Shown piece by piece: positions 12,301-32,505 of a DNA stretch of 64,000 nucleotides (its first letter is position 1; every line of letters begins with the position of its first letter). The DNA lies in the NCBI GenBank assembly GCA_030063045.1, contig JAQSEB010000046.1, forward strand, positions 496,001-560,000, written 5' to 3'. Under the pieces are notes generated by a model, which was not told the origin of the DNA, made no database searches, and saw only the letters and a list, made by a program, of their open reading frames with translations. The position numbers were made by a program, and so were the translations under genes. Source of the DNA: Pratylenchus scribneri (lineage: Eukaryota > Nematoda > Chromadorea > Rhabditida > Pratylenchidae).

Positions 12301-13074
12301 CATTCCGCTTGGCCACTTTTCCCCATGGCAGTTTCAACCATTTCTTTTCCCTTTTTTGTATTGTTTCCATTTTATTTGCCTTTCAATTTATTTCCGCCCC
12401 AAAAATCACTGACATAACTCCCTTCCCCCCTTTTGGGTGCTCAAATCTAAGAAAGGAACACTTTTTTGTGGGCTAAATTAGCATTTTCATTTTCCTCCAG
12501 TTCCATCGATTTTCCTCTGGCCAATAACCCATTTTAAGGCCAACTTTCTTTAAACCCTAAACCCAATTCCTTCCTTCCTTCTCTCCACTGCCAAATTGTT
12601 CTTTAGTCCCCAATCAATGTATTTGAATGGAATATTCAATTGTTTCCATTTGCGCAATTTTATGTGAATTTTCCCAGTGCCAAAAATGAAAATGACCATT
12701 GGCCTATTTTCAATTCAATTCACTTTTTTGCCAATTGATTCCTTCTCCAACTTTTATATTCAATATTCCCACCCAAAATTGCAAACATTTTTATCTCAAA
12801 TTTCTCTCCAAAAATTGGACATTTGCACAATGTCCACATTCAAATAATTTTAATAATCAATTTTGTTCTATTTTTGTGGCCGAAGGAGTGCCTTTGAATT
12901 AATCCAATAAATTTTTCCTTGGCCCAATCTTCATTCCTCAACAATAATTTATTATTATTTTTGTGCTTTGGATGGGCCAAAATGGGCGTTTGTTCCGTCA
13001 AATTCCAAAATTGGCGTCATTCTCCGCATTTCCGCACAAAATTGCACGGATGAATGAATGAATGGCTTCCCAAT

Positions 13075-13079
13075 ATTCA
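13075..13079. repeat. Target-site duplication, left copy (ATTCA)
   Basis: ATTCA immediately precedes the 5' LTR and recurs immediately after the 3' LTR at 24795-24799. A 5-bp duplication is what integrase of LTR retroelements commonly leaves. Confidence 0.85.
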
Positions 13080-13519
13080 TGTCGAATCCGTCGACTTAGT
13101 AAATTGGAAAAGGTTAAAATTGGTCGGAAGGACCAAAGTCCAAAGAATTGCGGATTTTTTGGGAATTGTTAACATTTACAGTTGAGGAATTCAACTGCCT
13201 TTTCTATTTGCTTTTTGGTCTAAAATAATGGCTCATTCCTTCCAACATTTTTGGTTATTTGCAAATTGGTCGATTTATTGCCTTTTTTGATGAATTCACA
13301 GTTTTTTGCCCCCACAATTTGTTCCCATTTTTGTGCCTTTAAAAGTCCCTCGATTTGTTCCCAAAATCACCCTTTCAACGAACATTTGAACATTTCAACG
13401 AATTCACCAATTTAATATTGCTTGACCAATTTTGCCTTAAATTGAATAAAAGAACCAATAACTGAATTTTCCCCAATTTTCGAGTCTTTGAATTGGTAAA
13501 AAGCGGTAGATTCCGAACA
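13080..13519 (+). repeat. 5' long terminal repeat
   Basis: 440 bp, starting TGTCGAATCC and ending CCGAACA. It repeats at a constant offset of 11,275 bp and no mismatch was seen on reading. It should carry the element's promoter and R region. An AATAAA polyadenylation signal lies at 13445-13450. Confidence 0.95.
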
Positions 13520-13521
13520 AG

Positions 13522-13537
13522 TGGCGCTCCTGTGGAC
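13522..13537 (+). other. Candidate primer-binding site
   Basis: TGGCGCTCCTGTGGAC begins two nucleotides after the 5' LTR. A TGG start is expected for pairing with the CCA end of a host tRNA. Which tRNA cannot be decided here. Confidence 0.45.
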
Positions 13538-13548
13538 TGTGGATAAAA

Positions 13549-13556
13549 GGTAAATT
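13549..13556 (+). promoter_or_regulatory. Candidate splice donor in the retroelement leader
   Basis: An AAAAG/GTAAAT site just upstream of the first ATG resembles a strong 5' splice site. Retroelements with an envelope often make it from a spliced subgenomic RNA, so this donor could serve the envelope or downstream segments. This is inference from the motif and position. Confidence 0.35.
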
Positions 13557-13592
13557 TGGGTTCTTTTGGTTTTCTTTTGTGGAATTCTGGAA

Positions 13593-15100
13593 ATGTCGGC
13601 AGCCATCCGGATGATTCTTGGCCCGGCCCTTAGCCGGTTGAGAACGAACTTGGCCCAAGGAAGGGTCCTCCTCGGTGAGGAGAGAAATGCGGCGAATCTG
13701 GAAGGGATTCACCATCGGCGTGTGCTCTTAACGCAAGGTTTAGAGCGCATTGATGCCGAAACTGCTCGGTGGAGAGATCTAATGGAGGATCTCGAGGATG
13801 ATGGTCCAGAAGTAGCTATCTTCGAGGGTTTTAACCAAGAAGGTAGACACTTCTTGGACTGGGTGGAGGAAGCCAGAGAGGTGTTGGCGGAACTACAACT
13901 CGCCATTGGGGCAGCGGAAGGGCAACCTCCCGTTGTGCCCCAACAGCAACCTCCTGTGGTGCCTCAACAGCAACCTCCCGTGGTTGTTAATGGAGTGGGT
14001 GGGGGAGGAAATGGGGGAGGAGGTGCAGCAGTACAACCCCCAGTTCGGCTTCCCCAACTGAATCTGCCCACTTTTGGGGGTGATCCCCTCGAATGGCCCA
14101 ACTTTTGGGAGTCGTTCGAAAGTGCGATTGATCGACATCCTCTCGAGGCTGTCGATAAATTGAACTACCTAATGGGCTGCCTAACAGGAAAGGCGGCTAA
14201 ATCGGTGGTTGGCTATCGAGGAGGAGGGAACTATGGCAATGTAGTGGATACCCTCAAACGGCTCTATGGCGATAATCGGGTGATTGCGGAGGCTTTACAA
14301 GCCGAATTGATCAATTTGCCGGTGTGTAATGATTCGGTTGAATCCCTCCAAGCTTTTGTGGAAAACTTGGAAAGATCATGCCGGCAATTGACGGCTCTAG
14401 GTCAGGCTGTTGAAAATCCTGTTCTTTGCCAGGTGGTGAAGAATAAAATTCCCAAAACTGCACTTATGGAAATCATAAAGGCAGAAAGAGTTGCAGGGCA
14501 ACAATTTGGGATGGAGGATTTACGAAGACAGCTGGCCGAGTTCGTCTCGATCAAAGCCGAACTTCAGCGCTTTTCAACTCCCTCACAGAGGGAAATCCCT
14601 AGGAAAGAAAAAGGGGATAGAGCAGTTGAGAAAGGGCGCGTTTTCGTAGCAAATGCCCAATTGCGAGGAAAAAGTTCGGAAGCGCAGGGAAAGGAGGCTA
14701 ATCCAGGGGGATGCTTCCTTTGTGAGGGGAAACACAGGGCATACGATTGTTCTAATTTCAAGGGACCTACGGAGCGTAGGCGTCGCCTTTTCAATTTAAA
14801 GCGGTGCTTTAAATGTCTGGGCAAAGACCACTGGGCAAGCCAGTGTAACAAGGGTAGGAAATGCGCCAACTGCAGTAGTGAGGATCATCATATCCTTATC
14901 TGTAGCGAGCCTATCCGAAAGACTAATAAGCCGGAAGGGAAATCCGGAAAGAAGAAGGGTAAAAATGGCAGACGTCCATTCCGTGCAGCAGTAAATGCAG
15001 TTACAGAAACCAAGGCTGACCATACGATGGCAGTAGTTTCCGGAATGTCTGACCAGCAGTCGGAATCTGTCATTTTGATGGCACGGGATGTGCCCTTCAT
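13593..15100 (+). other. Gag region with zinc knuckles
   Basis: Structural protein that would form particles and bind the element RNA. A helical N-terminal part is followed by a Pro/Gln linker (13918-13990) and a Gly-rich stretch. Next comes a capsid-like domain (about 14070-14570) of the kind common in Pao Gag, with PTFGGDPLEWPNFWESF as landmark. Then come three cysteine-histidine knuckles, the first reading CFLC...H...C and the last CANC...H...C, flanked by basic residues. Confidence 0.85.
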
Positions 15101-18100
15101 GAATGAAGAGGACCCTTCAAAAAATACGGAGGCTATGACCTTTTTTGACCCAGGGGCAACCCTCAATCTGATCAAAAGCTCGCTGGTCGAGCGGATGGGT
15201 TATAAAAGGTTTAAGCCTAAGAAATTGGATGTGTCGGCTTTTCAAAGCCGAGATCCAATTCAATTGAAGGCCCCAAGAGTTATAGTGGTCATGAAAACTA
15301 AATGGGGCACACCATTCCGCCTTCCAGCTTATGAAGTGGAATGGATGGTCAATTCAGTGCATCGCGCTGATTTGAATTCGGGTGAATTGACTCTGGCAAA
15401 TGAGGAACCCGAAATGCTTATTGGGTTATGGGAATTCTGGAATTTATTCAGCCAAAGAGAGAGAATAAATTCCCATCTTTTCCGCATTCATACAGCGTTG
15501 GGAAACGTAATTTGTGGAAAAGAAGAATTCCCAGAATGGGAAGAAGAGGAATTCCAGTCCATTATGACCATTTCAAGTGAAATGAAAGCAGTGGATGCTC
15601 GTCAAGAGAATGAACTGAGCAAGTTTTGGGACTTGGAAATGATCGGTGTGAAGGATGATCCCACCGAGAAGGACGATGATATCGCCCTAGATCGATTTGA
15701 AGAATCGGTAAAACGTCTGGAAGACGGGAGATTTAGTGTGGGTTGGCCGTGGAAGGAGTTTCCACCTAAATTACCCACCAATTATGAAATGGCGTATAAA
15801 CGGATGTGCTCGAACATCCGGAAAATGAAGGATACGCCAGAACTGCTGGGAAAATATCACGGAATTTTCCAAGAACAGTTGGAAAAGGGGTTTATTGAAC
15901 CTGCAACTCGGATGGGTTCTGGGGAGCATTTTCTCCCTCATCATGTGGTGATAAACCCGAAAAAAATTCGAATGGTTTTCGATGCTGCAGCGAAGCTGCG
16001 TGGGCAGTTGTCGCTCAATGAAACTATGTTTCGGGGACCGGTGATACTTCCGGATTTGGTGGGCTTGCTTTTGCGCTTCCGCAAATCTCCCTATGCCCTA
16101 TGGGCTGATTTGGAGAAAGCCTTCAACTCTTTGGCCTTAGAACCAAGGGATAGGGAATACTGCAAGATAGTTTGGGTGAAGGACCCAAATAAGCCACCGG
16201 AAAAGCCGGGAAATTTGGCAATTTATCGATGGGCGAGAGTGCCTTTCGGTGTTATTGCTTCCCCATTCCTTCTGGCGGCATGTGTCCGCAAATTCTTGAA
16301 GGAAGCGGGCTCAGACTTGGCCACCGAATATATGGGGAACGATTATGTGGATAATCTGCTCGCCTTATGTGAGACAGAAGAAGAGGCTGCTTCCAAGTAC
16401 AAGGAAGGAAAAGCACTCTTCAAAAGTTGCCAAATGAACCTTCGAGAGTTCGTATGTAACTCAGAAAGGGTTATGGCTACAATCCCAACTGAAGATAGGC
16501 TGAATGAGAAAATGCCTAAAGTTTTGGGAATATATTGGGATTTGGAGAAGGATGAACTCCTAATCAGACTTCCCCCAATGTTTGTGGGGAAAGTAATTAC
16601 ACGACGAGTTGTGCTCAAACAGCTGGCGTCTATTTATGATCCATTAGGAATTTTAAGTCCTTGCCTTTTACCTGCAAAAAGATTTTTACAGGGTTTGTGG
16701 CAGAAGCCAAGGGGTTGGGATGTACCCCTGGAACCCAATGAAGGGGAGGAGTGGACTAAGATTCTGACCACATGGAAAGTAAGCCCATTTAGTTTCCCAC
16801 GGATTGGGATCCTATCCACAAAGGCCAAATTCCAGCTCCATGTGTTTGTGGATGCTAGTGAATATGCCTATGCTGCCGCTGTGTATGTGCGGTCAGAATG
16901 GGCAGAAGAGACCTCAGCACGCATTTTTATGGCAAAAAGCCGTCTTAAGGCGATCGGAAAAGAGGTCACTATTCCCAGGATGGAATTGATGGCAATGCTT
17001 ATTGGGACTAGGCTGTTGAAGTTTGCATCGGCCCAGCTCCAACTTTCCTGGGAAGGAAGGTTCCTATGGGGGGATAACCAGTCGGTCCTAGCCTGGGTGG
17101 CTTCAAAAGAGCCACAACCACGGTTCGTTGAGAATCGGCTAAGGGAAATAAGAGAAGTGGGCATGGATGTTCGCTTTCTGTATGTTCCCACGGAACAAAA
17201 TCCCTCTGATGTGGCGTCGCGGGGTTGCGAGCCCGAAAGCTTGAAAAAACATGAGCTATGGTGGGAAGGGCCGGAATGGCTTAAGCAGGAGGAAAGTCAA
17301 TGGCCTTCAATAATGGAGGTGCGACCCACACAAGTCCTTGAAGAAGAGGATGAGCCCGAGACAAGGGTAATAGGAGCAGTAAACCTGGCTGTGGCCTTGG
17401 ACCCTATGAAGGGCAATGACTTAATTGAAATAAGTCGGTTTAGCCATTGGGTTCGACTCTTGAGCTCTTTGGCATTTGTTTTTCGATGGATAAGCCTGAT
17501 TTTTGCCAGAATGGGCAAAAAGCCGCAGGCAACGGAAGTGAGAGAAATATCCAAGAAAGGATCTTGGACTGCAAATGATTTTGCCCTAATGGAAAGGGTA
17601 CTCTTTCGCTCTGCCCAAAAGGTTTGGGATAAGCGAGAATTGTCGGGATTTAAGACAATTCAGGACCAAAATGGGATAATCCGGCTAGCTAGTCGATTGT
17701 GTAACAGTAAGATGAAGGATGAATTCATAAATCCTATCTTGCTCCCCACAAAATCCCAGGTCACAAAATTGGTTATCCAGTTTTGTCATGAAGGAGTTCG
17801 GCATATGGGTGTGGAGTTCACCCTATCCCGGTTCCTGGATCGGTTTTGGACTCCAAAGTCTCGCTTACTGGCCAAGATGGCAGTAAGACAGTGCCAAAAA
17901 TGCCGAAGGATACGGGGAAAATCATTTGCCCTCCCAAATATGCCCCATTTACCCGAGGATAGGGTAGTTCGATGCGCTCCATTTGAGAGTGTGGGCATTG
18001 ATTATTTGGGGCCAACGAACACTATCTTGAGGGTTCAAGATGGGAAAAGGGATGTGTCGAAGGCATGGATTGTGCTGATAACATGCCTGTCGACCCGTGC

Positions 18101-21100
18101 CGTATATTTCGAGCCAGTTTTGGATATGACGGCCGGTACCTTCCTCCATGTGCTCCGGCGGTTTGCAAGTCGGAGGGGGACTCCAAGGAGAATCCTTACA
18201 GACAATGGAACGTCCTTTGTACTGGCTAGTAAGGTAGCTTCTGCCCTTGAGGCGGGGAGGGTGCCATCGACATTTTTAGACCACTTCTTGGCCAGAGAAG
18301 GGATTAGATGGCGATTTATTTCCCATCTCTCCCCCTGGCAAGGGGGAGTCTATGAGAGGCTGGTAGCCCTCATAAAGACGGCTTTCAAATGTGAACTTGG
18401 CCGTAAAATCCTGAATTGGGATGAATTACTGACCTTCACTACGGAAGTGGAGGCTATTGTTAATCAACGCCCTCTCACCTATACGTCGGTGGATGGGGAT
18501 GGTTTGGAACCATTAAGGCCGATTGATTTCATCGCGCCAAAAGCCCAGTTAAGTATTCCAGTGGACTTGAAACTGAAGGAGGAAACCGGTGATCCGGATT
18601 TCCAAATAAGTCCTCCAGACAATCGTCAGGGACTGATTGCCTTTTGGACCGGCTGCGCAGCAGCTTTGGAAGGGTTTTGGGCAAGATGGAATCGAGAATA
18701 CCTTCCCATGCTTCGGGAAAAGGCTAAATGGGAACATAAAGGCCGCCGAAATCAAACGACAGTTCAGCCGAGGGTAGGTGAAGTCGTATTGATTGAAGAG
18801 GATTTAGTTCCTCGGAACCAGTGGCATCTGGGTCGAATAGTGGAATTATTTGGCTCAGTCAAAGCCGTTCGCAATGCCAGGCTGAGAATGGGAAATGGCA
18901 AGTTTCTCATAAGGCCTATCAATCGCCTTGTTCCCTTAGAAGTGAGGGAGGAAAAGACTGAGGATGAAACTCCTCAAGCTGAAATCCAATCGGCTACTAA
19001 AGAGCCAGGAAGGGTGAAGAAAGTACTAACGGCAATGCCGAGCCATGGAATGGTTACGAGGTCTAAGGCTAAGCTGGCTTTACCCATTCTGATGCAGTTA
19101 ATAATGGTTATGGGGGTAGTGAGCAATCCGTTGAAGCCTTCCCCACTCCCAAATGTGGGAATACACCCGGCTGTGGGATCGGAGAGTATCCCAGGTTGTC
19201 GGGATTGCGAAGTGCGTTGTACGTTGGAAGGAGTCCAAATTAGAGTACCCGATCGAATTTCAAAGTTCGAAATTTGTTGCGGAGCAATGAGAGAGTGCAT
19301 ATCCCAAAAACTGGTAAGGAGTTATATCTACCGGTCAGCTAAGGAGCAGTTGCTCCTGGGATTTGACTGCGCACTCAGCTTTTGGACTAAAAAGGGTGAA
19401 GCTGAAATAGGCAGGGCAGAATGCCCAGCTATTGAAGCATGCGAACTCATAGAATGTTGGGTTTGCATTGAAAGGTTGGCAAACCCTGACTGTCGGCCAG
19501 ATTTAACGCTAGGCTTAGCAGGGATCACAGGGGCTGCAGTTCTTTACGGGCTTTGCTGCCTAATTGGATTCTTCCGGTCATGTTGCGGAAATATGGCATG
19601 GATTTGCCGGCTAATGTGTTGGCCAAAGGCAATATGGCGATGGATGAGTCAAGAAAAGCGAAGAGAGGGTCAGGAGGAAGTCCCTCTGATCGAGGGTTCT
19701 CGATCAAAGCCAACAGTTCGCAAGAATAGGCGAATTTCTCAAATGGCATTATTGTCAAAAATGGCGATAATGGCATTTTTGGGATTGGCTATTCCGGCAG
19801 GAAAAGGATACCGAGTCGACTTAGAGGGAAGTTGCTCGGCCTTTAAATCTGAATCCCACAACCAAAGTATGGGTACTGTTTGGTTGTGTGTGGTTGAGAC
19901 TCGGGAAGAAACAGTTCCTATTGTGGCTGGTCGCCAATTGGAACTATACATAGGGGGAGTGCCTGTTAGGACCTCCACCCCTTCCTTCCCAACTGCCAGT
20001 TGTCCTAGTGGGGAGTATCATCCTGTGTGTGCCTGGAAATGGTACATAGTTGGATTGATTGTTTCCACCTGGGTTTTGTCCTTCCTCCTGGCTGTATTTT
20101 TCCTGGAATGGGATTTGGCGATCCCAAATATCCGGAATTGGATAAGACGGAATGTTCAGGTTCGCCGGATATTTCCATGTTTATTCTTACTTGGCCTAAT
20201 CCGGGGAATCGGAGGTGAGGCGCAAGTTTTCTCCGTTGTGGCGAAATCGGAGAATTGTTGGAGGACTCCCACGGGTTCAGTGTGTCGCCTAGAAAGTGTG
20301 ACGACATTGACCCTTTTGCCGGCGGGACAGCCGGTGAGATTACTCCTAAGGAATCCCCAGGGAAAGATATTGGGGGTACTGGAGATATATATGGAGTCAA
20401 TCTCCGTAGGATGCATTCGCCACCATGAGAGGTGGCTACGATCCTATCGAGTGGACATCAAGTCCAGAAAGGATTGTTTTACAGTGGAAAGCTGTCAGAA
20501 CGATTTCTGTTCCCGTATGAACAAGGGAATGGTATCAGAAACAATCCCTGAGTTGGGAGAAATCTCACAGGCGTTGCCTGGATTCACTAGGTGTGAACCA
20601 TCAACAGCCTTTTGGCACAATGGCTGTTTCCTTGCAACGAGCAGTTGCTTATTCTACAGGCCATATGTAGTCCCATTGTCGGAAGTGGTATACGAGTTAT
20701 TCACTTGCCCAGGGACTGAGCACCGGATTGGTGCTAAACTGAAATTGGAAATGGGTGGAAATACCACGAAGTTGGTAAACACGACCCTAATCCCAGGAAT
20801 AACTTTCCGTTGGGAGAACATTTCCGTATTCCCTGTGGGGGACTCACAGCCGCAGATTCCGGCTTTATCCGGTCAATTTTTGACCGATGGAGAGCGGGTT
20901 TCTCTTGTTCAATCCCTAGAAGAGGGGTTAAGCTGTGCAGATTTTGAGTCTGCCAGAACTTTGAATTGCTCTTTTGAGCAGAACCAATGTCGAACGTGTG
21001 CTTTCAACCACGATGAAGGTACAGCACATTGCCAATGCCGGGAAATGGCGTTGGAAAGATTGATGGAAGACGAGGAGAAGCGTCTTCCACTGTCCATTGG

Positions 21101-24100
21101 GCAAATTAATCTAGTGAATGAAGGGAGAGATGTGCTCTCCGTAAGCTCATACACGCCCATCCAGGTAGGAATCCATCTGGAGGGTCTCCACTTAGTCCTC
21201 GAGGAGGACTTGAATAAGTGTGAGGGTAAGGCGGAAGGCCTACGGGGCTGCTATGGATGCATGGCGGGAGTTGGGGGTGCCCAACTCCAATTCTCCTGTC
21301 AAACAGACTTCGGTTCTGCACTGGCAGAGGCGCAGTGCGATGACGGGACCACCTTTCTAGTAAGGTGTGAAGAAGAAAGAAAGGAGCAGAATATTTCGCT
21401 CCATTTTGACAGAGCAGAGGTAGACACGGAGTGTATACTTCGATGCCCTGGAGGCCAAAATAAGTTCAGAATGCAAGGGCATTTGAACTTCATCCAGGAG
21501 AAAAGGATGGAAAAGTGGGGCGGAACCCAAAGTAGGGGATATGCCCCAGGGAATGGTACAATTCCATGGCCAGAATGGCCCAATATAGATGTGGGGGACA
21601 TTGGACGTTTTTTCCTAAACCCCACGAGAATGATAATTCTCATTGTTTTAGTGCTAGGAGTGGTATTTCTAGCACTTTGCCTAATTAGGCTTAATCCTTT
21701 ATTAAAGGGTTGGAGGATTGTTGGAAGACTGGCGATGGCCGGTTTGCTGCTGGCGGGAGGGTCGTCAGCGACGACGGGCCAGCAGGCCCGATTGTTAACT
21801 ACCCATCTAATCCCCAAATCCATCCTTCCCATACAATTCCTTCCCATTCAAATTCCCATCCAAAGCAAAAAATTCTTCCCCATTTCCACTTCCATTTCCC
21901 AAAATGAAATGATGAATTGGTGGGGAAAGGCAAACAACGGTTGTTGTTTGGCCCGGAGGGGAAGACGGGGGAGGGAGGCCCAGTGCCTTAATCATGAACA
22001 CCGAATTGGTGAAGGATCGGAGGCAAGAGGGTGGATGAATTGGTGGGGAAAGGCCAACAACGATTGTTGTTTGGCCCAAAGAAGGGGATGGAGGAAAGAG
22101 GCCCAATGTCTTAATCATGAACGCCAAATTGGTGAAGGAATGGAGGCGAAGGGATGGTGGGGCCGAATGAGAAAGGAAAGGTCGCTTATGGGGCGAAGCA
22201 ATGGGACTGGGTTGCCGGAGAGGCAATTTGGGACCGATTCATGTCGGTTTGTGGAATGGGCGCCCGAGAGGCGAAGTGAGGAAATGGTGGGGAAGGAAGT
22301 AGCCGAGTCATTCGGCTTTGAGGAAGGAAGAAAGGCAATAAAAATTCATGCTTCCACCTTTCTTTCATTCATTTTCCTAAATTCCCTTCATTCATTCCTT
22401 TTCCCGAATCCTAAAACCAATTCCACAATCCCATATACAATGCCAATAAAAATTCCGCTATTATCCCTAGCTGAAGCCGTTAGTGGCCTGGAAGGGGAGT
22501 GTTTTTTGGATTTCATCCATGCTTTTCAAGGAAAGGCATGGATGAGGGCTATGGTGGATAAAATCGGCCAAAAGGCTGGTAGGATTGGTATATCCTATCT
22601 ACCATCCCACAATTTTACCCTCCAGGGACCGCTGACTTTGACCAAAGCTGCGCGGGAGGCGAAAGCTTATGGCGATACTTCGGTTGAGGACCATTATCGC
22701 CAAAGGAGGGGGATCAGTTTACGGTATCCCCATCTTTTTTGCCTTGTCTCTATGAGCCAAGGCCAAAGGAATGTTTTTCCCCCCGAGGTATTGGTGGTTT
22801 ATCTTGATGGGAGGCAACATTTGTTTGAAATCCTGGAGGAACTCCAGGGGTTAGCCGAAAAACCCACCGATGTTGACGGAGCCTATTGTTGGGTTGAGGG
22901 GCATATTGTGGAAACAGAAATTCCACCATTGGGCCCTTGCACCTATAGAGAAAATGCCCCAGGAATTTTGGGGAGAGGCCCGTCGAGTTCTCCAGGGAAT
23001 TTGGAGTCGGTTCGGGTTTCATTGGGTTCCCGTCCAGGCACTAGTGGGGCTAGTTCCCAAGGAAAACAGGGAGGAACCCAAAAATCCCAGAAGGGAAAGA
23101 AACGGGAGGAGGCTGGACCGTCAAATGCCCCATGTGGCCCATCCCTTTTGGATGAATATGAACTTGAAATGGGAAGAGCAACCCTAACCTTCCTTCGGGA
23201 ACGAGGGATAGAATCCACAATTCAGGTGGAAGGCCGAGTGACCATTGGGAGGGGAATGAGAGGAAGAAATTCCCAGCATATTGGATTTGGGGCTAGTTAC
23301 CCCGTGTACTTGGCCATCATCGCGCTCTTTGTGTTTTTCGCGTTTACCCCTTCCACCGCTTTCATTGTGCCATTTTCAGGAATTACAGGAAAAATTGAGA
23401 ATATTACCCAAAAATTCTATTTATTGAAAATGGCGGCGGAGAATTCCCAACAACAAATGGAGGTGGACAACAATCCACTCGGTTGTTTTGCGGAGGCGGC
23501 CGCAGAAGCTGCTGCCGAGGAAGGTTGGTTGGCTGGGAATGATCCGGGGACAATGAAAATCCCATCCACAGAGGTGGATGTGGGCGTGAACAACCCGAAC
23601 CCGGTGACCGGTGGTACCAAGGATGGGAATCTTCCAAGCGCTGGTAGTGTTTTGGGAAAAGAAAAGAAAAGAAAATTCCCAGCAACAGGTGAAAATGATG
23701 GCCAAAAGCTCCCATCCAAGGAAAAGAAAAAGGATGGGTTGGGCGAGGATGTCCAAAAATATGTGGACCGCGCTGTGAGAAAGGCGGTCGCAGCAGCCGC
23801 CCTAAAATCAACTGGAACGGGTGTTGGTGTTGGCCAAAATTCCTCGGTTGGTGGTGTGGTTGGTCCTCGTTCTTCGGTTGGTGGTGGTGGTGGTGGCAGC
23901 AGCAGCAGCGGCACATCAAAAAATACTCCAAACAACAGCAATGGTCGTCCAAATGTTGGGGGTGGTGGCAGAAATTTGGTTGGAAATGTTGGTGGATGCA
24001 ATCAGTTGGGCCGGAAACGTTCGAATGATGAGATGAAAGAGATGAAAAGAGAATTGGAAGAATTGAAAAATTTGTTTGTGCCATCCTCTCCCCTCAAATC

Positions 24101-24374
24101 ACCACATCCTGTGTCCCTTCGCAATAGGTATTCCCAGGCAAAAAGACCAAAATTTGGGGCGGGGTTTGCCCCCCAGAATGGGGGTGGAAGTGCCAGATGG
24201 CCCCTGGTAAAAGCCATTCATTATTTGGAGGAGGCCCTTGGAAGGGCCCGCCGTGACGGACAGGTCGATGGTGCCGAATTTGTGGGGGAAAAGATACTGC
24301 AGCTGCGAGCAGCGGCTGAGCGGTACTTCCCAGACCCACTTTCGGCGGCGGGAGTGTCGAATCCGTCGACTTAG
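13593..24374 (+). CDS. Retroelement polyprotein: Gag-PR-RT-RH-IN-Env-PAZ-like-C-terminal accessory region
   Basis: 3593 codons without a stop. The frame is open a little upstream (from 13566), but 13593 is the first ATG. In order: Gag with a proline-rich QPPVVPQ triplet; capsid-like region; three CCHC-type zinc knuckles (14712-14903); aspartic protease; RT; Pao-type connection region; RNase H; integrase with HHCC and DDE; an integrase C-terminal domain; envelope; tandem 41-residue repeats; PAZ-like domain; a hydrophobic segment; a basic glycine-rich C-terminus. The last six codons lie inside the 3' LTR. BEL/Pao elements normally fuse Gag and Pol in one frame. Fusion with the envelope and two further modules in the same frame is unusual. 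Separate spliced messages, or proteolysis of one product, could resolve the parts. Confidence 0.93.
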   Translation: MSAAIRMILGPALSRLRTNLAQGRVLLGEERNAANLEGIHHRRVLLTQGLERIDAETARWRDLMEDLEDDGPEVAIFEGFNQEGRHFLDWVEEAREVLAELQLAIGAAEGQPPVVPQQQPPVVPQQQPPVVVNGVGGGGNGGGGAAVQPPVRLPQLNLPTFGGDPLEWPNFWESFESAIDRHPLEAVDKLNYLMGCLTGKAAKSVVGYRGGGNYGNVVDTLKRLYGDNRVIAEALQAELINLPVCNDSVESLQAFVENLERSCRQLTALGQAVENPVLCQVVKNKIPKTALMEIIKAERVAGQQFGMEDLRRQLAEFVSIKAELQRFSTPSQREIPRKEKGDRAVEKGRVFVANAQLRGKSSEAQGKEANPGGCFLCEGKHRAYDCSNFKGPTERRRRLFNLKRCFKCLGKDHWASQCNKGRKCANCSSEDHHILICSEPIRKTNKPEGKSGKKKGKNGRRPFRAAVNAVTETKADHTMAVVSGMSDQQSESVILMARDVPFMNEEDPSKNTEAMTFFDPGATLNLIKSSLVERMGYKRFKPKKLDVSAFQSRDPIQLKAPRVIVVMKTKWGTPFRLPAYEVEWMVNSVHRADLNSGELTLANEEPEMLIGLWEFWNLFSQRERINSHLFRIHTALGNVICGKEEFPEWEEEEFQSIMTISSEMKAVDARQENELSKFWDLEMIGVKDDPTEKDDDIALDRFEESVKRLEDGRFSVGWPWKEFPPKLPTNYEMAYKRMCSNIRKMKDTPELLGKYHGIFQEQLEKGFIEPATRMGSGEHFLPHHVVINPKKIRMVFDAAAKLRGQLSLNETMFRGPVILPDLVGLLLRFRKSPYALWADLEKAFNSLALEPRDREYCKIVWVKDPNKPPEKPGNLAIYRWARVPFGVIASPFLLAACVRKFLKEAGSDLATEYMGNDYVDNLLALCETEEEAASKYKEGKALFKSCQMNLREFVCNSERVMATIPTEDRLNEKMPKVLGIYWDLEKDELLIRLPPMFVGKVITRRVVLKQLASIYDPLGILSPCLLPAKRFLQGLWQKPRGWDVPLEPNEGEEWTKILTTWKVSPFSFPRIGILSTKAKFQLHVFVDASEYAYAAAVYVRSEWAEETSARIFMAKSRLKAIGKEVTIPRMELMAMLIGTRLLKFASAQLQLSWEGRFLWGDNQSVLAWVASKEPQPRFVENRLREIREVGMDVRFLYVPTEQNPSDVASRGCEPESLKKHELWWEGPEWLKQEESQWPSIMEVRPTQVLEEEDEPETRVIGAVNLAVALDPMKGNDLIEISRFSHWVRLLSSLAFVFRWISLIFARMGKKPQATEVREISKKGSWTANDFALMERVLFRSAQKVWDKRELSGFKTIQDQNGIIRLASRLCNSKMKDEFINPILLPTKSQVTKLVIQFCHEGVRHMGVEFTLSRFLDRFWTPKSRLLAKMAVRQCQKCRRIRGKSFALPNMPHLPEDRVVRCAPFESVGIDYLGPTNTILRVQDGKRDVSKAWIVLITCLSTRAVYFEPVLDMTAGTFLHVLRRFASRRGTPRRILTDNGTSFVLASKVASALEAGRVPSTFLDHFLAREGIRWRFISHLSPWQGGVYERLVALIKTAFKCELGRKILNWDELLTFTTEVEAIVNQRPLTYTSVDGDGLEPLRPIDFIAPKAQLSIPVDLKLKEETGDPDFQISPPDNRQGLIAFWTGCAAALEGFWARWNREYLPMLREKAKWEHKGRRNQTTVQPRVGEVVLIEEDLVPRNQWHLGRIVELFGSVKAVRNARLRMGNGKFLIRPINRLVPLEVREEKTEDETPQAEIQSATKEPGRVKKVLTAMPSHGMVTRSKAKLALPILMQLIMVMGVVSNPLKPSPLPNVGIHPAVGSESIPGCRDCEVRCTLEGVQIRVPDRISKFEICCGAMRECISQKLVRSYIYRSAKEQLLLGFDCALSFWTKKGEAEIGRAECPAIEACELIECWVCIERLANPDCRPDLTLGLAGITGAAVLYGLCCLIGFFRSCCGNMAWICRLMCWPKAIWRWMSQEKRREGQEEVPLIEGSRSKPTVRKNRRISQMALLSKMAIMAFLGLAIPAGKGYRVDLEGSCSAFKSESHNQSMGTVWLCVVETREETVPIVAGRQLELYIGGVPVRTSTPSFPTASCPSGEYHPVCAWKWYIVGLIVSTWVLSFLLAVFFLEWDLAIPNIRNWIRRNVQVRRIFPCLFLLGLIRGIGGEAQVFSVVAKSENCWRTPTGSVCRLESVTTLTLLPAGQPVRLLLRNPQGKILGVLEIYMESISVGCIRHHERWLRSYRVDIKSRKDCFTVESCQNDFCSRMNKGMVSETIPELGEISQALPGFTRCEPSTAFWHNGCFLATSSCLFYRPYVVPLSEVVYELFTCPGTEHRIGAKLKLEMGGNTTKLVNTTLIPGITFRWENISVFPVGDSQPQIPALSGQFLTDGERVSLVQSLEEGLSCADFESARTLNCSFEQNQCRTCAFNHDEGTAHCQCREMALERLMEDEEKRLPLSIGQINLVNEGRDVLSVSSYTPIQVGIHLEGLHLVLEEDLNKCEGKAEGLRGCYGCMAGVGGAQLQFSCQTDFGSALAEAQCDDGTTFLVRCEEERKEQNISLHFDRAEVDTECILRCPGGQNKFRMQGHLNFIQEKRMEKWGGTQSRGYAPGNGTIPWPEWPNIDVGDIGRFFLNPTRMIILIVLVLGVVFLALCLIRLNPLLKGWRIVGRLAMAGLLLAGGSSATTGQQARLLTTHLIPKSILPIQFLPIQIPIQSKKFFPISTSISQNEMMNWWGKANNGCCLARRGRRGREAQCLNHEHRIGEGSEARGWMNWWGKANNDCCLAQRRGWRKEAQCLNHERQIGEGMEAKGWWGRMRKERSLMGRSNGTGLPERQFGTDSCRFVEWAPERRSEEMVGKEVAESFGFEEGRKAIKIHASTFLSFIFLNSLHSFLFPNPKTNSTIPYTMPIKIPLLSLAEAVSGLEGECFLDFIHAFQGKAWMRAMVDKIGQKAGRIGISYLPSHNFTLQGPLTLTKAAREAKAYGDTSVEDHYRQRRGISLRYPHLFCLVSMSQGQRNVFPPEVLVVYLDGRQHLFEILEELQGLAEKPTDVDGAYCWVEGHIVETEIPPLGPCTYRENAPGILGRGPSSSPGNLESVRVSLGSRPGTSGASSQGKQGGTQKSQKGKKREEAGPSNAPCGPSLLDEYELEMGRATLTFLRERGIESTIQVEGRVTIGRGMRGRNSQHIGFGASYPVYLAIIALFVFFAFTPSTAFIVPFSGITGKIENITQKFYLLKMAAENSQQQMEVDNNPLGCFAEAAAEAAAEEGWLAGNDPGTMKIPSTEVDVGVNNPNPVTGGTKDGNLPSAGSVLGKEKKRKFPATGENDGQKLPSKEKKKDGLGEDVQKYVDRAVRKAVAAAALKSTGTGVGVGQNSSVGGVVGPRSSVGGGGGGSSSSGTSKNTPNNSNGRPNVGGGGRNLVGNVGGCNQLGRKRSNDEMKEMKRELEELKNLFVPSSPLKSPHPVSLRNRYSQAKRPKFGAGFAPQNGGGSARWPLVKAIHYLEEALGRARRDGQVDGAEFVGEKILQLRAAAERYFPDPLSAAGVSNPST
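15100..17250 (+). other. Protease, reverse transcriptase and RNase H region
   Basis: The protease aspartate is at 15147 in FFDPGA, where most relatives have D-S-G or D-T-G. The RT has its first catalytic Asp at 16107 (ALWADLEKAF) and the second at 16350 in YVDN, where the canonical motif is YVDD. The Pao-type segment after the RT contains ASIYDPLGILSP (about 16627). RNase H keeps all four acidic positions: Asp 16851, Glu 16983, Asp 17073, Asp 17208. These parts copy RNA into DNA in the particle. The two motif variants may be lineage features rather than damage. Confidence 0.88.
17640..18960 (+). other. Integrase region
   Basis: An N-terminal zinc-binding HHCC module (His near 17787, CQKC near 17890) is followed by the catalytic core. 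Its three acidic residues are Asp 18000 (GIDYLGP), Asp 18201 (LTDNG) and Glu 18354 (VYERL), with 50 residues between the second and third. The C-terminal part (about 18720-18950, including VGEVVLI and HLGRIVELF) matches the domain found after the core in BEL/Pao integrases. All catalytic residues are present. Confidence 0.9.
19034..21790 (+). other. Envelope region, phlebovirus-Gc-like (class II fusogen type)
   Basis: A cysteine-rich, membrane-anchored region after integrase. It has several hydrophobic segments (about 19079-19120, 19504-19575, 19743-19802, 20041-20112, 20170-20215). A long cysteine-rich ectodomain follows (about 20220-21600) with N-glycosylation motifs, then a strong transmembrane anchor (about 21629-21700). 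The pattern of paired cysteines with a hydrophobic loop near 20610-20670 resembles the Gc glycoprotein family known from phleboviruses and from envelope-bearing BEL elements of Caenorhabditis. The multi-pass layout would fit a Gn-like part ahead of Gc. The cell-entry role is inferred; no breaks were seen. Confidence 0.7.
21791..22440 (+). repeat. Inter-module spacer with two 123-bp in-frame tandem repeats
   Basis: Between envelope and PAZ-like module the frame stays open through sequence that looks non-coding in composition (CCATTCC-type words at both ends). In it lie two direct copies of a 123-bp unit (21912-22034 and 22035-about 22157), each beginning with codons for MNWWGKAN. Because 123 is a multiple of three, duplication kept the frame. 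A pyrimidine-rich tract (about 22350-22470) ending in TTATCCCTAG could be a splice acceptor for the next module. Confidence 0.7.
22440..22830 (+). other. PAZ-like domain (Argonaute-type small-RNA 3'-end binding fold)
   Basis: Starting at an internal ATG (22440), the frame encodes about 125 residues that read as a PAZ domain. A leading segment includes CFLDFI (22500). Next comes the stretch before the signature, including GRIGISYLP and FTLQG. Then comes the signature SVEDHYRQRRGISLRYPHLF (about 22681-22740), followed by PPEVLVVY and a closing DGRQ (to about 22815). In Argonaute and Piwi proteins the same positions read like V..YF...H...LRYPHLPCL...LP.EV. No N, MID or PIWI domain follows, so slicing is not expected. 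It could sequester small RNAs. The assignment rests on motif memory, not on a search. Confidence 0.65.
23290..24374 (+). other. C-terminal accessory segment: hydrophobic stretch, then basic Gly-rich nuclear-like protein
   Basis: A hydrophobic run (about 23301-23370) is followed by an acceptor-like CCATTTTCAG (ends 23379) and an ATG at 23430. This opens a 314-codon region: Ala-rich start; two lysine clusters typical of nuclear localisation (KEKKRKF, KEKKKDG); an alanine-rich helix; Ser/Gly-rich linkers; a coiled-coil-like MKEMKRELEELKNLF; and a helical C-terminus. The stop lies 20 nt inside the 3' LTR. No family is recognised. It could be made from a spliced RNA as a separate nuclear protein. 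Confidence 0.45.
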
Positions 24375-24794
24375 TAAATTGGAAAAGGTTAAAATTGGTC
24401 GGAAGGACCAAAGTCCAAAGAATTGCGGATTTTTTGGGAATTGTTAACATTTACAGTTGAGGAATTCAACTGCCTTTTCTATTTGCTTTTTGGTCTAAAA
24501 TAATGGCTCATTCCTTCCAACATTTTTGGTTATTTGCAAATTGGTCGATTTATTGCCTTTTTTGATGAATTCACAGTTTTTTGCCCCCACAATTTGTTCC
24601 CATTTTTGTGCCTTTAAAAGTCCCTCGATTTGTTCCCAAAATCACCCTTTCAACGAACATTTGAACATTTCAACGAATTCACCAATTTAATATTGCTTGA
24701 CCAATTTTGCCTTAAATTGAATAAAAGAACCAATAACTGAATTTTCCCCAATTTTCGAGTCTTTGAATTGGTAAAAAGCGGTAGATTCCGAACA
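24355..24794 (+). repeat. 3' long terminal repeat
   Basis: 440 bp, visually identical to the 5' copy. A purine-leaning GGCGGCGGGAG directly precedes it and may act as polypurine tract. AATAAA is at 24720-24725. The end of the coding frame overlaps its first 20 bases. Confidence 0.95.
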
Positions 24795-24799
24795 ATTCA
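24795..24799. repeat. Target-site duplication, right copy (ATTCA)
   Basis: Matches 13075-13079 exactly and abuts the end of the 3' LTR. Confidence 0.85.
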
Positions 24800-27700
24800 A
24801 TTTGATCCATTTTCCTTTCCTTCACATTTTGTTCCCCAAAATTGGATGGCAATTGGAAGTTGGAACACATTCCTTTAAAACATACCAAATATTTTATAAA
24901 TTATTCTCATAATTTCCTATTCAGAATATTAATTCCTAAACTTTTCAAAGCCTTCAATTCCCTCAATTAATTTTTACCGGAAAAAACAATCTGCCCATTT
25001 AAAATTCGCACAATTGTCAATAATAAATGACAATAAAAGTGCCATTTTAGGGCCAAATTCTCCGAACAAATCATTTCTTTACCTTTGCCAAAATTACATA
25101 TTTCCTCCTTCATTTATTCTCATTTTCACTCTAATCCATTGTTTGGGGATTATTTAGTTTATTTCTTAGTCTGACTTTTCGAAAAAGTTATTTTGAATGT
25201 TAAAAAAATGGTACTGGATCAATTTATGTGGGAAAATGAATTGTAGAAAATAGAATATTTTGGAGTCCAATTTTTATGGGAATTTGTTACTAAAATGAAA
25301 CAAATATAAATGAGCTAAAACATCCTAAAAAAGAAGGAAATTTGTCTGGTTCAAAAATTCAATTCACAATTTTTAGTTCATTTCAATTTACGCAAAAATA
25401 TGGCCAAAATCCTTTAATTCCTCCTCCAATATTTGAAGTCCATCAATTCAATTCATTTCCCTTGCATTAATTCCTTTCTAAATTTTTCATCCAAAAATGT
25501 TTATTCATTTTTTTTATTTCCTTCTTCCAATTTTTAATCCCCTCCTCCACTCCACTCATTTTTTGCCTCTGGCCATTTGACCTTCCAAAAATGGTCAAAT
25601 TTGGCCAAATTACTGAAAAAAAAGTCCAAAAATTTCCAAATGAATTGAATAAAAGAGGAAAATGTTGCAATAACCAAAAAGGGCAACCAATTCCCACATG
25701 CTCCTTCGCCCCTAAATTTTGTGAAAATTTAAACAAACCAAAAGAGAGGGAATGAAGTCCCTCACATGTTTTCCTGGCAATCCCCCAATTCCCTCGCATA
25801 ATTAATTAACAAAGAAGAGCATATTTTCCCCTAAATAAAGTGCACAATTTCGTTTGGCCAACATCCCATTATAAATTATATGCCATGCGCACTCCCCCTC
25901 CTCCCTTCATCATTGTCCCTAAACAGATTGAATCACTGCCAAATTGTCCCACCCCAATATTTTGAGGAATTTCAATTTTTAATTCGAAGAAATGATTTTT
26001 TCCCGCCGGAGATGTCCTCCTCCCTTTATACCAGGAAATATGTCGTCCCCAACCCATGATGAATTATTAAAGCCCAAATAGAGGGCATGTGGGTATTTTG
26101 TTGCGTTTCCAAATTGCCAGCCTCATTTCCTTTTATTTTGCACCCAATAATTTAACATTTTTTTGTGCCACCTGTGCCCCCCCCCCCCTCCCCGGCTAAT
26201 TCCCTTTAATTTACGCAAAATGGCCACCCTTTTGTCGCATTTTTGTTTCAAAATTGAAAGGAAAAGCTGCCAATTTTGTGGGATTGAAGGGGAAAATGGC
26301 AACCAAACATTTTATTCCAATGAAAATGACAGCAACAAATTAGTGGAATTGGACAGGAAATGAATGGAATTGAGCGAAGCATCCATTGGAATTAGAAGAG
26401 AAGGGGATTTTTGTTGCCATTCCAATTTAGAATTTAAATCCGTCATATCCCCCCCCCCATTATTAAAAAAAAGAACAAAATTCGTATATTCAGTTCGAAC
26501 TTCGGATAAAGTTCATAAATTAAGTTTTTATTCAGTCAAACTTTTTACGCATTCATTCCCCAAAATCCTCTTTAAATTTTCCTTCCATTTTAAAATATTC
26601 TAAATTGAGGCATAATTCCTGACTTAAAATGGAAGGAAGCAAATTAATTCCATGAAAATTGATGAAAAAACGAATACTTTTTGCAACTTAAAATACAGCC
26701 AATGACATCCATCCCATCCAATGGTGCCAAATTTAAAAATGCACAGCTAAAATAACATTAATTAATATTCGATATTCTTTCCATATTTCATCACCAAATT
26801 CCAATATTAAATTAATTTAATGCCACAATATTTATTATTTCTCCTACATCCCACCATTCCCTCTCTCTATTTCTTGTGCCACATTTTTGGCACAATAATT
26901 CGATAAATAATAATTTTTTTGGGTTGCCATTTGCCTTGGCCTTCCCCCACCCCCTTTTCGAATGTTTCTCAAATTTCGCCGACACTCAAAAATTGTCCGG
27001 CGGCCACATTTTTTTGTTGGCTTTTGGCCCTTGTCCCAATTTCTCCCCATTTTTGGGTCCATCCATAATTTGTCCCCTTCAATTTGATTAATTTCCAAAG
27101 CACACCTTCATTCCCCCTCCCCCTTCATTTTGCCAATTTTTGCCAACAAAAATGGCAACAACTTTTCCCCATTTTTTCCATTTAATTTAAATTATATTGT
27201 CCCCATAAAGAAAGAGGGAATCACATTTGGGCTTGGGGGAATATTCAAACAAAAAATTATTCCACCAATCGACGTCAATAAAAAATGAATTTGGATTGGA
27301 TTGGTTATGCAAATCCATTCATTGCCATTCTTTTTCTTTTGTTCGGTTTAAACAGAGAATGCGGATCATTAATTATCAATTTTATTTTATTGAAATTCAA
27401 TTGCCAATTCGAGCTAATCAATCCATTGTTATCCTCTCCATTAATCTCTTTTTTAAAAGAATTGTCTGTGAAAAAAAAGAGGATGAAGCCCCAAAATTGA
27501 ATTGAATGGAAGGGCAAAATACCAGGAAGAAAGGAATGCCGAGGCGGACTATTAATTAGGTAGAATAGAAGTACACAGGAATGATGCCCTTTTGTGAATA
27601 TTCATAAGAAATGTTTTAGGTATATTCCCTCCTTTTATTCAATGAAATAATGTAAATTCATCGGTGCCATCCATCCAAATTCATCGTTTTTGTCCTTTTT

Positions 27701-29513: not shown

Positions 29514-32505
29514 ATGCCTCCGGCATTCAAATTGCTTGAGGACGAATTGATGGCCAATAATTCGTCCGTTGTTGAATTAAGCAATGAAACGGTGAAAAGG
29601 GCGACGGCCGAACATCATTTTGTTGCCTCAAAAGCAATTCGTTTGGCCGAGGATTTGGATACCCCAAATTGCACATACAGATATGGTCGGTTTTGGTGGC
29701 ATTTTTGGCTTTATTCAATGCCAATTTTTGTGCAGATTTGAACGATGATTTAATTCGGCTAATTTCCCTTTGGCTTGATGGCCCAATCACCATCATTGCC
29801 GCATTATTGGCCTTTGTCGGCTGCCATTTTGCCGTTCGTTTTTTGGCACGTGCCGGCCTAAATCGTGATTTGACCGCCGGTTTGCCTCCATTCATTCAAA
29901 TCCAATTCAATCCCTCCACCAACTCAGCCCTTTATACACTTTGTGTTTGCGATTCATTCCTCATTTCGATGGTGGTCATTTATCATTCATTGGAGGCTTG
30001 TTCCATCCTTTTACTCGGCAAAAACCTAATGTGGGATGAACAAAGCAGTGTTCTCATTTTCCATGGCATTGTCAGTGCCGCAACCACTGCATCCACCCTT
30101 TTAGTTGTTTTCATCACATTTCAACGTTTCCTTGTTGTTTGGTTCCCATTGCGATATGCCCGAATTCGGGAGCCAAAAAGAAATGTGAGTTATAGTCCTT
30201 ATTCCCCAGATTAATGTTGGTTCTGGGCCTTCGCCAGGAGCCAAAAACCCCCGGTGGCCCTAGATTAGGGGATGAAGATTAGTTGAACTGACTAAATGAA
30301 TATTTATCTGTTGTGCATAGATGGAAAAACAGAATGAAAAGTAAAGTGAACATTTTGTGAAGAGAAAATCGGGTTTAAAAAGGCAGATTGGAGCAATATT
30401 TGATTGATAGGTTGACGGGTGACAGGTGTAGGCAAGAAGTTGGGGTACAGTAGGATGAATAGAAAAGGCACTTAGGCAATATTGTCTGTCTACAGAATTA
30501 ATCGGCCAATCAAATGCAAATTCAATTCAATTTTGCAGGATAATATGAGAAAATCATCCTCATCGCTGGGCGGCGATCCGGACACCGAAATTAGTGGAAG
30601 CATATTTCGCAGTGGTGGCCTTGTTCGAACCCTTTCAAAGAGATTATTGAGCAGCCATAAAAAGCCGAATATGCGCAAAATGTTTCGGCCATTCCTTTTC
30701 CCAAGTATGTCCAATTCATTCCTTCAAATAAATAACCCCCATTTTTAGTGTGTGTCCTCATTTTCGCATTTATGCTCAATTTTTCGGTATTCTTCGAATT
30801 TGAATTGGTTCCATGTTTTGCATTCGCCCATAACACATTCTCTATGCAACTTTTCCCAACCCAATTGAGGCAATCCCAAAATGTAATCATCAATAAATTC
30901 AATTCTAATCTAATTCAAATTCAATTTATTTAGTACAATTTAATTCGCACTGCAATTGCAATGAGTTCCCAAACAATTGGGCCAATTCTTTGCATAACCC
31001 TTTTGACCATTGTCACCGAATACAAAGTCCATTCTGCGCTGAAGGCACGTCGAATGCTTTTCGAGGCCCAAAATCGTCGTCGTTCCCTCGTCGCTTTGGA
31101 GGAATTGAAGGAGAAAGTTTCGCGCACTGTTTCCATTTTTATTGCCATCAAATTCCTCATCCTCAGGTGCCATCAATCCATTTTTTAAAATAATTATTTC
31201 CCCATTTCTCATCAGATCTTTGCCAATTTTTTTCGACATTTATGAAACATTTTACGGCATTGATTCATTTGGAATTATTCTCAGCATTTTGGTGCGCCTT
31301 TCCGATTTTGGTGTTGTCCTCAATTCGGCCACAAATTCGCTTGCCTATTTTGGCAAAACTGAATTCTTTACAAATCGGCTCAAAAGCAAATTGCTGAAGG
31401 AAAAGCAGCACATTATGGTTGCCAAGGTTGTAAGTTAATTTTTTGCTTTCACAATTCACATTTTCGCTTAAAATTCCTCATAAAATTGATGCTTTTCATT
31501 CATTCTTTCTCTTTTTTTTATTAGAAATTTTTCCAGATTTTGCCTTCCACAAAATTCATGAGCACATTTCATTTGGTCAGAATATTTTCAAATTCATTCT
31601 TTTTTTTTCCAATTCTTTCTTCCATCTTTTTTTTAACATTTTCATTCTTCATTCTCAAAATGGCTAATATATTTTTGCCTAATAAAAATTAACATTTTCC
31701 CATCTTCCTCCCTTTGCTCATAATTTATCAATTGTTTACTTTTTAAGGCCGCATCAGCTTGCTTGGTCACCGGCATTTCGCCCAAATGTTTGCCAAAACC
31801 AATGGTCAAATATAGCCAATCCAGTCGATTATCAGTGCCATTCTCTGATCTTGGTGAGGGAATTCTAACATTTTTGATATGGGTATTAGTCATAATCTTA
31901 AGGCTAATAAAGTTGTTTGGGGCGAGAGCTGGGCCTAGGCTCTCGATTTTAGCGATATTTATCTATTTTGTGCAGAAATGGCAAAACAGCACGTCGGCGA
32001 AAAGTAATCGAAAAAGTGAACATTTTATGGGGAAATAAACTGGTAAAAGAGGCTTGGGGCAAAATATGATTGATAGGGAGGAGGCATGATATTTGGGCAA
32101 AAAGTGAGGAATATGGTAGGAAAAATAGTTGGCATTGACAATGAGGCATTTTCCAATTATTCCATATAAATTAATTTATATTTTTATTTTGCAGCCCGAC
32201 GTCGAGAACAACGCAAAACGGTGACCTATGGTCTGGTGGATTCCTCCTCAATTTCCAACAATTCTTCAAAATGTTCGCCGGCTGATTCTCCATTGCTTCG
32301 TTCCAATCATTTCCTCTCACTTCGAAATGGGGTCGTCGTCCACACTCACCCAATGGCCAGAAGGATCCAACAACAATCACCTTTGGCCACAAATGAGGCA
32401 ACCAAAAATGGAGCCGAAATTCGGGAGAATGGAGGCAGCCAATTGGGCGGAGAATTCAATTCCGAAACGGCTAGCGAACCACTCAGCGATCCTCCACCAA
32501 AATGA
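29514..32505 (+). CDS. Rhodopsin-class GPCR, nematode peptide-receptor-like
   Basis: Seven-pass receptor expected at the neuronal or muscle surface, signalling through G proteins. Eight exons (29514-29685, 29736-30184, 30539-30704, 30749-30882, 30934-31166, 31216-31429, 31748-31853, 32195-32505) give one 594-residue frame. The N-terminus is extracellular with N-glycosylation motifs (NSS, NET, NCT). TM1 begins near GPITIIAALL. TM3 ends FQRFLVVWFPLRY, with QRF in place of DRY. An unusually long second loop of about 55 residues rich in Ser and Lys precedes TM4. TM6 begins near KVSRTVSIFIAIKFL. TM7 contains LNSATNSLAYF, a variant of the NPxxY region. The long Ser/Asn-rich C-tail ends SDPPPK. The style resembles FMRFamide-like peptide receptors; the ligand cannot be given. 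Introns 2 and 7 contain related repeats. It runs tail-to-tail with the PAN gene. Confidence 0.82.
30299..30480 (+). repeat. Intronic repeat, copy 1 (GPCR intron 2)
   Basis: A stretch of about 180 bp inside the 354-bp intron 2. It aligns by eye with a stretch in intron 7 of the same gene. Shared landmarks in order are ATATTTATCT, TGTGCA, AAAACAG, AAGTGAACATTTT and TTGATTGATAGG-type segments. Confidence 0.6.
31954..32140 (+). repeat. Intronic repeat, copy 2 (GPCR intron 7)
   Basis: The diverged partner of the intron 2 repeat, in the 341-bp intron 7. It has the same order of landmarks (ATATTTATCT, TGTGCA, AAAACAG, AAGTGAACATTTT, ATGATTGATAGG). Both host introns begin GTGAG. Confidence 0.6.

Follow-up and report, generated by a model that had tools for sequence, protein, structure and literature searches.

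BEL/Pao elements (Belpaoviridae) are defined by long terminal repeats (LTRs) of 0.2-1.2 kb, together with gag and a pol that contains protease, reverse transcriptase (RT) and integrase (PMC8742986). In the passages of the Atlas virus paper on which we draw, the polyprotein of this nematode belpaovirus comprises 2828 residues and ends with Gc, and a YVDN motif serves as one mark of nematode belpaoviruses in general (PMC9094657). The captured ORF3 of bdelloid rotifer LTR elements, as described in excerpts of PMC5408684, offers a parallel in which accessory genes are likewise common to unrelated retroelement classes. However, that ORF3 encodes an esterase or exonuclease rather than a silencing domain, and the exchange described in those excerpts is among retroelements and not with DNA transposons (PMC5408684).

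The element considered here occupies positions 13080-24794 of a 64,000-nucleotide stretch of the Pratylenchus scribneri genome (the window) and is 11.7 kb long (Table 1). Its LTRs of about 440 nt show no difference across the 441 positions compared, and an ATTCA direct repeat at 13075-13079 and 24795-24799 reads, from the letters, as a 5-bp target-site duplication. A first-pass annotation made from the sequence had called the carrier an envelope-bearing BEL/Pao element, and the identical LTRs, the gag and pol domains and the phlebovirus-type Gc bear this out. The LTR size agrees with the published definition, and gag, protease, RT and integrase are all found, the last with an H2C2 match above its cut-off and an rve match below it. 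No RNase H family is among the Pfam matches of the element. A single gag-pol-env polyprotein, identical LTRs, YVDN and a phlebovirus-type Gc are common to this element and to Atlas virus and the nematode belpaoviruses, as far as the latter are described in the parts of PMC9094657 used here. Unlike Atlas virus in that description (PMC9094657), the window element continues beyond Gc with a PAZ domain, a hydrophobic tail and a third segment, for a total of 3606 codons. The length of 11.7 kb, the PAZ and the third segment after env do not exclude it from the Belpaoviridae, the published description being one of known members.

Table 1. Features of the BEL/Pao element, by position in the window.
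Feature	Position	Strand	Evidence or remark
5′ LTR (TG...CA)	13080-13519	+	441 nt identical, 13080-13520 vs 24355-24795; 300-nt core
Candidate primer-binding site TGGCGCTCCTGTGGACTG	13522-13539	+	Directly after 5′ LTR; read from the letters
Single open frame, 3606 codons	13554-24374	+	Stop within 3′ LTR; first Met of gag taken at 13593
gag, DUF1759	14073-14483	+	Pfam 97.3 bits
Reverse transcriptase, RVT_1	16077-16442	+	32.7 bits; YVDN active-site variant read from translation
Peptidase_A17 (Pao) region	16599-17078	+	Pfam 47 + 86.6 bits, two adjoining pieces
Integrase, H2C2 zinc binding and rve core	17757-18320	+	H2C2 31.2 bits; rve 28.5 bits, below cut-off 32.6
DUF5641, 3′ of integrase core	18645-18938	+	Pfam 67.4 bits
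Phlebovirus-type Gc envelope fusion protein	20226-21686	+	Phlebovirus_G2 198.7 bits, Phlebo_G2_C 32.8 bits
Gc membrane helix	21630-21686	+	Hydropathy
Open linker between Gc and PAZ	21753-22439	+	Two 123-nt tandem copies, 21911-22156
PAZ domain with N-terminal extension	22440-22871	+	Pfam core 22671-22808
Tail after PAZ	22872-23429	+	Hydrophobic stretch 23313-23369 by hydropathy
Third downstream segment	23430-24371	+	Later part conserved in two relatives; protein comparison with C234 and C61
3′ LTR	24355-24794	+	Repeat comparison with 5′ LTR

The segments around the PAZ domain are conserved to different degrees. The tail has 31% identity to that of C234, a relative in the same genome, and no match in a second relative, C61. 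The third segment has 47% identity to C234 over 115 residues and 27% to C61 over 173, and matched no Pfam, NCBIfam or PADLOC family; its stop codon sits in the 3′ LTR. The tandem copies of the linker are 82% alike and leave the frame open, and the linker has no match in the relatives compared.

The PAZ domain itself was identified by several routes. The ATG at 22440, SVEDHYRQRRGISLRYPHLF, PPEVLVVY and DGRQ all lie in the frame 13554-24374, where the first-pass annotation had placed its motif, and its assignment to the Argonaute-type PAZ held up. PF02170 matches with 33.6 bits (E 4.3e-8), above the gathering cut-off of 28.8, over profile positions 60-103 of 123. As a single sequence, the window domain matched Argonaute PAZ in the PDB weakly (best E 0.051), while a profile of six BEL-type copies gave 31 sequences at E<=1 (best 5.9e-6), all of them Argonaute chains. 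A profile of the Polinton copies discussed below covered most of the Argonaute PAZ (E 5.4e-9), and the BEL and Polinton profiles aligned to each other with a probability of 97.1 (hhalign, E 5.1e-11) across 62 columns, all of them in the second part. The annotation had also held that the preceding 60 or so residues are compatible with a PAZ fold. These residues do align with Polinton PAZ proteins in a multiple alignment, but the direct Pfam and PDB matches of the window domain are confined to its second half, so the first half is PAZ by alignment with relatives and not by profile score. By eye only, the N-terminal part resembles what precedes PAZ in Argonautes; the profile search did not recover that host exon. 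An AlphaFold2 model from one sequence of the window domain was uninformative (mean pLDDT 38.3). A chance match was rejected as the source of the PAZ call, and so was a Dicer origin, the PDB matches being Argonautes. Overall, the window gene is almost certainly an element-borne PAZ gene.

Pfam scans of pieces spanning the entire frame 13554-24374 returned no MID or PIWI family, as the first-pass annotation had said. Thus, the window protein has PAZ in common with Argonautes (AGO/WAGO), its closest PDB matches, but is without the MID and PIWI that stand alongside PAZ in an Argonaute. Since PAZ lies in one continuous frame with gag-pol-env, its release as a separate protein is only a candidate event. 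Upstream of the ATG at 22440, a pyrimidine-rich stretch but no clear TTTCAG splice acceptor was seen by eye. A protein search across 5.8 billion sequences gave 285 candidates, none of them at E<=0.01, and of the 19 and 31 pattern matches from two scans of viral contigs, not one was confirmed.

Protein searches of the same genome revealed 36 BEL/Pao-type PAZ loci including that of the window, which fall into group A with four (window, C234, C61 and C22), group B with eight, group C with five and group D with 19. The search for related carriers that the first-pass annotation had proposed therefore yields 35 further BEL/Pao-type loci, in addition to the Polintons described below. Used as a query, the window PAZ retrieves only five BEL-type loci besides itself at E<=0.001, and no Polinton or host gene. 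Some copies are more divergent: L073 (group D) and L058 (group C) score 18.8 and 21.2 bits, below the Pfam cut-off of 28.8, and L048 (group B) and L072 and L075 (group D) have no Pfam PAZ match, the latter two being assigned to divergent group D through protein matches to L073. The group D PAZ of L072-L075 (C247, C33, C75 and C109) has an insert rich in R and S ahead of the final conserved stretch.

Of the 123 envelope loci scored, 29 are followed on the same strand by a BEL-type PAZ no more than 5 kb away. When RT loci were ranked by their match to that of the window within this genome and the best 50 of 143 were examined, 27 of the best 36 had a PAZ locus within 13 kb on either strand (24 within 7.2 kb). 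Among ranks 37-50, PAZ is nearby in two, one of which (C30) is on the opposite strand and part of another element. PAZ is thus common among the best-ranked RT loci and rare at ranks 37-50, and therefore marks one part of BEL/Pao diversity here. Several other envelope-bearing frames of more than 3000 codons occur among the 123 envelope loci, and these may hold accessory genes other than PAZ after env.

A related PAZ gene is also found in many Polintons (Mavericks) of this genome, whose replication machinery, built on PolB, is unrelated to that of BEL/Pao elements. A PAZ match was taken as a host Argonaute where PIWI followed it on the same strand at a distance of no more than 12 kb; the upstream control gave one case. 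By this rule, 27 of the 123 PAZ matches listed above the Pfam cut-off are PIWI-adjacent and 96 are without PIWI. The unit at L046/L047 combines PAZ (36.8 bits) with PolB (69.7 bits) and an A32 ATPase (23.1, cut-off 22.8), as well as matches below their cut-offs to an integrase (25.2 bits against 32.6) and a C48-like cysteine protease (16.7 against 20.7). We take this to be the Polinton gene set of PolB, retroviral-type integrase, A32 ATPase and cysteine protease, although Pfam identified no capsid genes at L046/L047. In fetched pieces of 2.8-4 kb, 13 of 18 sampled non-BEL PAZ loci adjoin PolB, ATPase or protease matches, some of the reference proteins for this survey having been taken from L028, L036 and L046. 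One further locus (L070) neighbors a gene known only beside PAZ in L028 and L036, and in the remaining four (L035, L061, L062 and L069) PAZ stands alone.

After two match lists were merged, there were at least 160 distinct PAZ loci that are neither BEL-type nor PIWI-adjacent. This count omits five doubtful or host-like rows (C104 twice, C41:9390, C10:1120065 and C48:923297), and among the 176 rows behind it one (C139:572379) has PIWI within 12 kb on either side. That all of these roughly 160 loci are Polintons is an extrapolation from the 18 sampled. Some Polinton-type PAZ loci form head-to-tail arrays, with spacings of 20,145 and 20,144 at C63:11769/31914/52058 and of 38,409 twice at C138:42318/80727/119136. 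In L064-L067, also Polinton-type, PAZ is divided between two open frames in an intron-like manner.

The nearest relatives of BEL-type PAZ outside BEL/Pao are the Polintons of the same genome and not the host Argonautes found. The matches listed for the PAZ queries L003, L005 and L059 include other elements but not one of the 27 host loci next to PIWI. The window's own query finds only BEL-type loci, so the link of this copy to Polintons comes from its relatives and the tree. In a tree of 48 rows and 118 columns, 14 host rows, whose groups we take to be ALG and WAGO-like, split from 34 element rows at 100/98. With the PAZ core only and the joined host row L007 (15 host rows), the split stands at 97/96. 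The alignment omitted short profile matches (including host L007-L009 and L025) and duplicate loci; the first tree further omitted L064-L067, L011, L013, L022, L053, L056 and identical rows, and the PAZ-core tree omitted L075, while L072 and L074 did not get through the profile at any stage. Among the 14 host rows, three (L012, L021 and L029) have no PIWI nearby and were assigned to the host because they resemble rows that do.

A T[TSN]H[LM] stretch recurs in many host and many element rows, the window row not among them, and suggests a worm-type Argonaute donor. The PAZ gene was thus probably taken from an Argonaute of the worm-type (WAGO-like) group. As the element PAZ stands apart from the sampled host PAZ, exchange between the retroelements and Polintons appears likelier than separate captures. 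The competing account, in which different Argonautes were captured separately and the grouping of element PAZ is a long-branch artefact, concerns origin and not mechanism, and we consider it rather unlikely. It draws on the flagged long branches, on the fall of the split to 76/94 (unstarred, in 78% of bootstrap trees) once four more divergent host rows are included, and on the absence of a single BEL PAZ clade from the trees, although such a clade is not rejected (p-AU 0.127). Against it stand the starred host/element split of the first two trees, the element queries that match elements among the matches listed, and position 316 of the small-RNA pocket, which is His in Polintons and group C and Tyr in 19 host rows.

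Constraint on the gene was assessed by NG86 counts on the PAZ codons of 17 pairs (given as synonymous:nonsynonymous). BEL pairs gave 16:0, 8:1, 19:1, 41:24, 39.5:24.5 and 17:6, whereas two were saturated (C46b/C84, 67.8:76.2; window/C234, 84.3:102.7) and two had too few changes (C72/C1, 3:4; C40/C1, 3:5). Polinton pairs gave 15:3, 11:2, 38.8:34.2 (w 0.18), 52.8:68.2 (w 0.19) and 6:6 (w 0.26), with too few changes in two others (0:3 and 0:2). Where the counts suffice, the PAZ protein is kept by purifying selection in recent copies of lineages other than that of the window; the very close pairs (3:4, 3:5, 0:3, 0:2 and 6:6) show no constraint. A functionless insertion of a host Argonaute exon, by chance or recently and in frame, into one element has no more to appeal to than the general rate at which retroelements capture genes. 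It is hardly credible in view of the selection in close pairs, the 36 BEL-type loci in four divergent groups with 29 at the same place after env, and nearest listed relatives that are other elements and not host genes.

Over longer distances, PAZ diverges faster than RT. Between the window and C234, identity is 51% in PAZ against 83-90% in pol (90% in an RT piece, 83% in a longer PR-RT piece and in the integrase), with 64% at the end of gag. The corresponding values against C61 are 38% in PAZ, 41% at the end of gag, 57% in Gc, 61% in PR-RT and 76% in the integrase. This pattern fits an arms race, as well as relaxed constraint or replacement.

Pocket residues were mapped through the Ago2 alignment of the Polinton-copy profile, to positions that we presume to be Y311, R315 and H316. 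Position 316 is His in all 18 Polinton rows and all three group C rows and Tyr in all 19 host rows. It is Arg in the four group A rows (including the window), Phe in the single group D row, and Gly or Trp near a gap in all seven group B rows. Among the Polinton rows, 17 of 18 have R, K or H at position 315. Of the 52 rows, 50 retain the P and E of the PLE motif, and the remaining two have gaps there. The equivalents of Y311, R315 and H316 are altered in groups A, B and D, and the pocket residues are for the most part retained in Polintons and group C. From these residues, small-RNA binding is plausible for the PAZ of Polintons and group C, and less sure for groups A (the window's), B and D.

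One reading of these changes is that the PAZ fold was kept while small-RNA binding was lost, so that the domain would now serve the polyprotein structurally or by binding proteins, a non-RNA role. The R/S-rich insert of group D and the faster divergence of PAZ relative to RT agree with such a loss, as do the pocket changes themselves, but the conserved 316 His of Polintons and group C and the basic position 315 of Polintons do not. We regard this reading as unlikely.

Hydropathy bears on where the domain would lie. At a threshold of 1.4, the Gc helix is the only hydrophobic stretch of the window protein between Gc and PAZ, and one more follows PAZ. At a threshold of 1.6, the number of stretches from the Gc helix to PAZ is odd in five of eight relatives (C61, C46b, C109, C1 and C84) and even in three (C33, C247 and C223). 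This hints weakly at a PAZ on the cytosolic or inner side of the membrane. Such a location, which the count gives for the window and for five of the eight relatives, would also suit a PAZ that serves the element's own RNA, holding the 3′ ends of genomic RNA, primer tRNA or small RNAs so that they are packaged, as a nucleic-acid chaperone in the particle. The frame shared with Gag-Pol-Env and the basic residues at 315-316 in group A point the same way. However, Polintons carry a related gene under selection, and they use protein-primed DNA synthesis with no tRNA primer and no RNA genome. A role in the element's own RNA is, in our judgment, as unlikely as the loss of binding considered above.

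In the model that we favor, the accessory gene carried by this envelope-bearing BEL/Pao lineage encodes PAZ only, without MID or PIWI, and descends from an Argonaute. Its product would face the cytosol at the membrane or be enclosed in the particle. There it may mask the 3′ ends of host small RNAs, may replace Argonaute in a complex and so poison Argonaute complexes or occupy a partner, or may do both. In either case, host small-RNA silencing would be counteracted. A stand-alone PAZ has no slicing activity and no hold on the 5′ end of a guide. Argonaute pathways silence mobile DNA, and host silencing is the main thing that reverse-transcribing and protein-primed DNA elements have in common. 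Most of the closest BEL/Pao relatives of the window element in this genome carry PAZ, and many Polintons do too. Purifying selection in close copies and presence in two element classes favor an anti-silencing role, and the strongest argument for it is comparative, namely that small-RNA silencing targets retroelements and protein-primed DNA elements alike, despite their different modes of replication. The altered pocket residues in some lineages, including the window's, argue against simple 3′-end binding everywhere. Judged from sequence, an anti-silencing role of the element PAZ has about an even chance of being correct. A broader proposal is that a transmissible PAZ-only anti-silencing module, descended from a worm Argonaute, passes in nematodes between BEL/Pao elements and Polinton DNA viruses, that it outnumbers host Argonaute PAZ several-fold in this genome, and that it influences an arms race with the 22G and piRNA pathways. 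This proposal is tentative and somewhat less probable than the role itself.

We know of no PAZ-only suppressor of RNA silencing. Viral suppressors of RNA silencing and rice AGO18, which sequesters a microRNA according to part of PMC4358150, resemble the proposed activity in principle, through small-RNA sequestration. The first-pass annotation had stated that no retroelement family with a PAZ domain was described. In print this stands, since no PAZ gene in a retroelement or Polinton was found in the top-ranked papers, with nematode Polinton papers partly covered; in the genome, by contrast, the 35 other BEL/Pao-type loci show that the window element is not alone. The word PAZ is absent from the main text of PMC9094657 and PMC3118150 and from the preprint PMC11071308 on nematode Polintons, and the word Argonaute from the main text of PMC9094657. 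The passages of PMC11599104 and PMC6361761 that mention PAZ concern Argonautes and cited PAZ papers. Taken as a whole, the interpretation offered by the first-pass annotation is partly supported.

In this genome, two unrelated classes of mobile DNA encode part of an Argonaute, under selection where this can be tested, which suggests that mobile DNA borrowed part of the host silencing machinery. If silencing is blocked by this protein, it would be, to our knowledge, the first PAZ-only suppressor, and would offer a direct way to study the evasion of 22G RNAs and piRNAs by nematode elements. If the exchange is true, gene traffic between retroelements and virus-like DNA transposons would be documented.

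The element also differs from its surroundings in composition, with a G+C content of 44-50% (window 13000-24800) against 28-41% in most flanking kilobases. Elsewhere in the window, an Srx chemoreceptor match lies at 29588-30211 (29.8 bits, cut-off 23.8), in keeping with a nematode host, and M1 aminopeptidase domain matches lie on the minus strand at 60159-63286, where the ERAP1_C match is below its cut-off.
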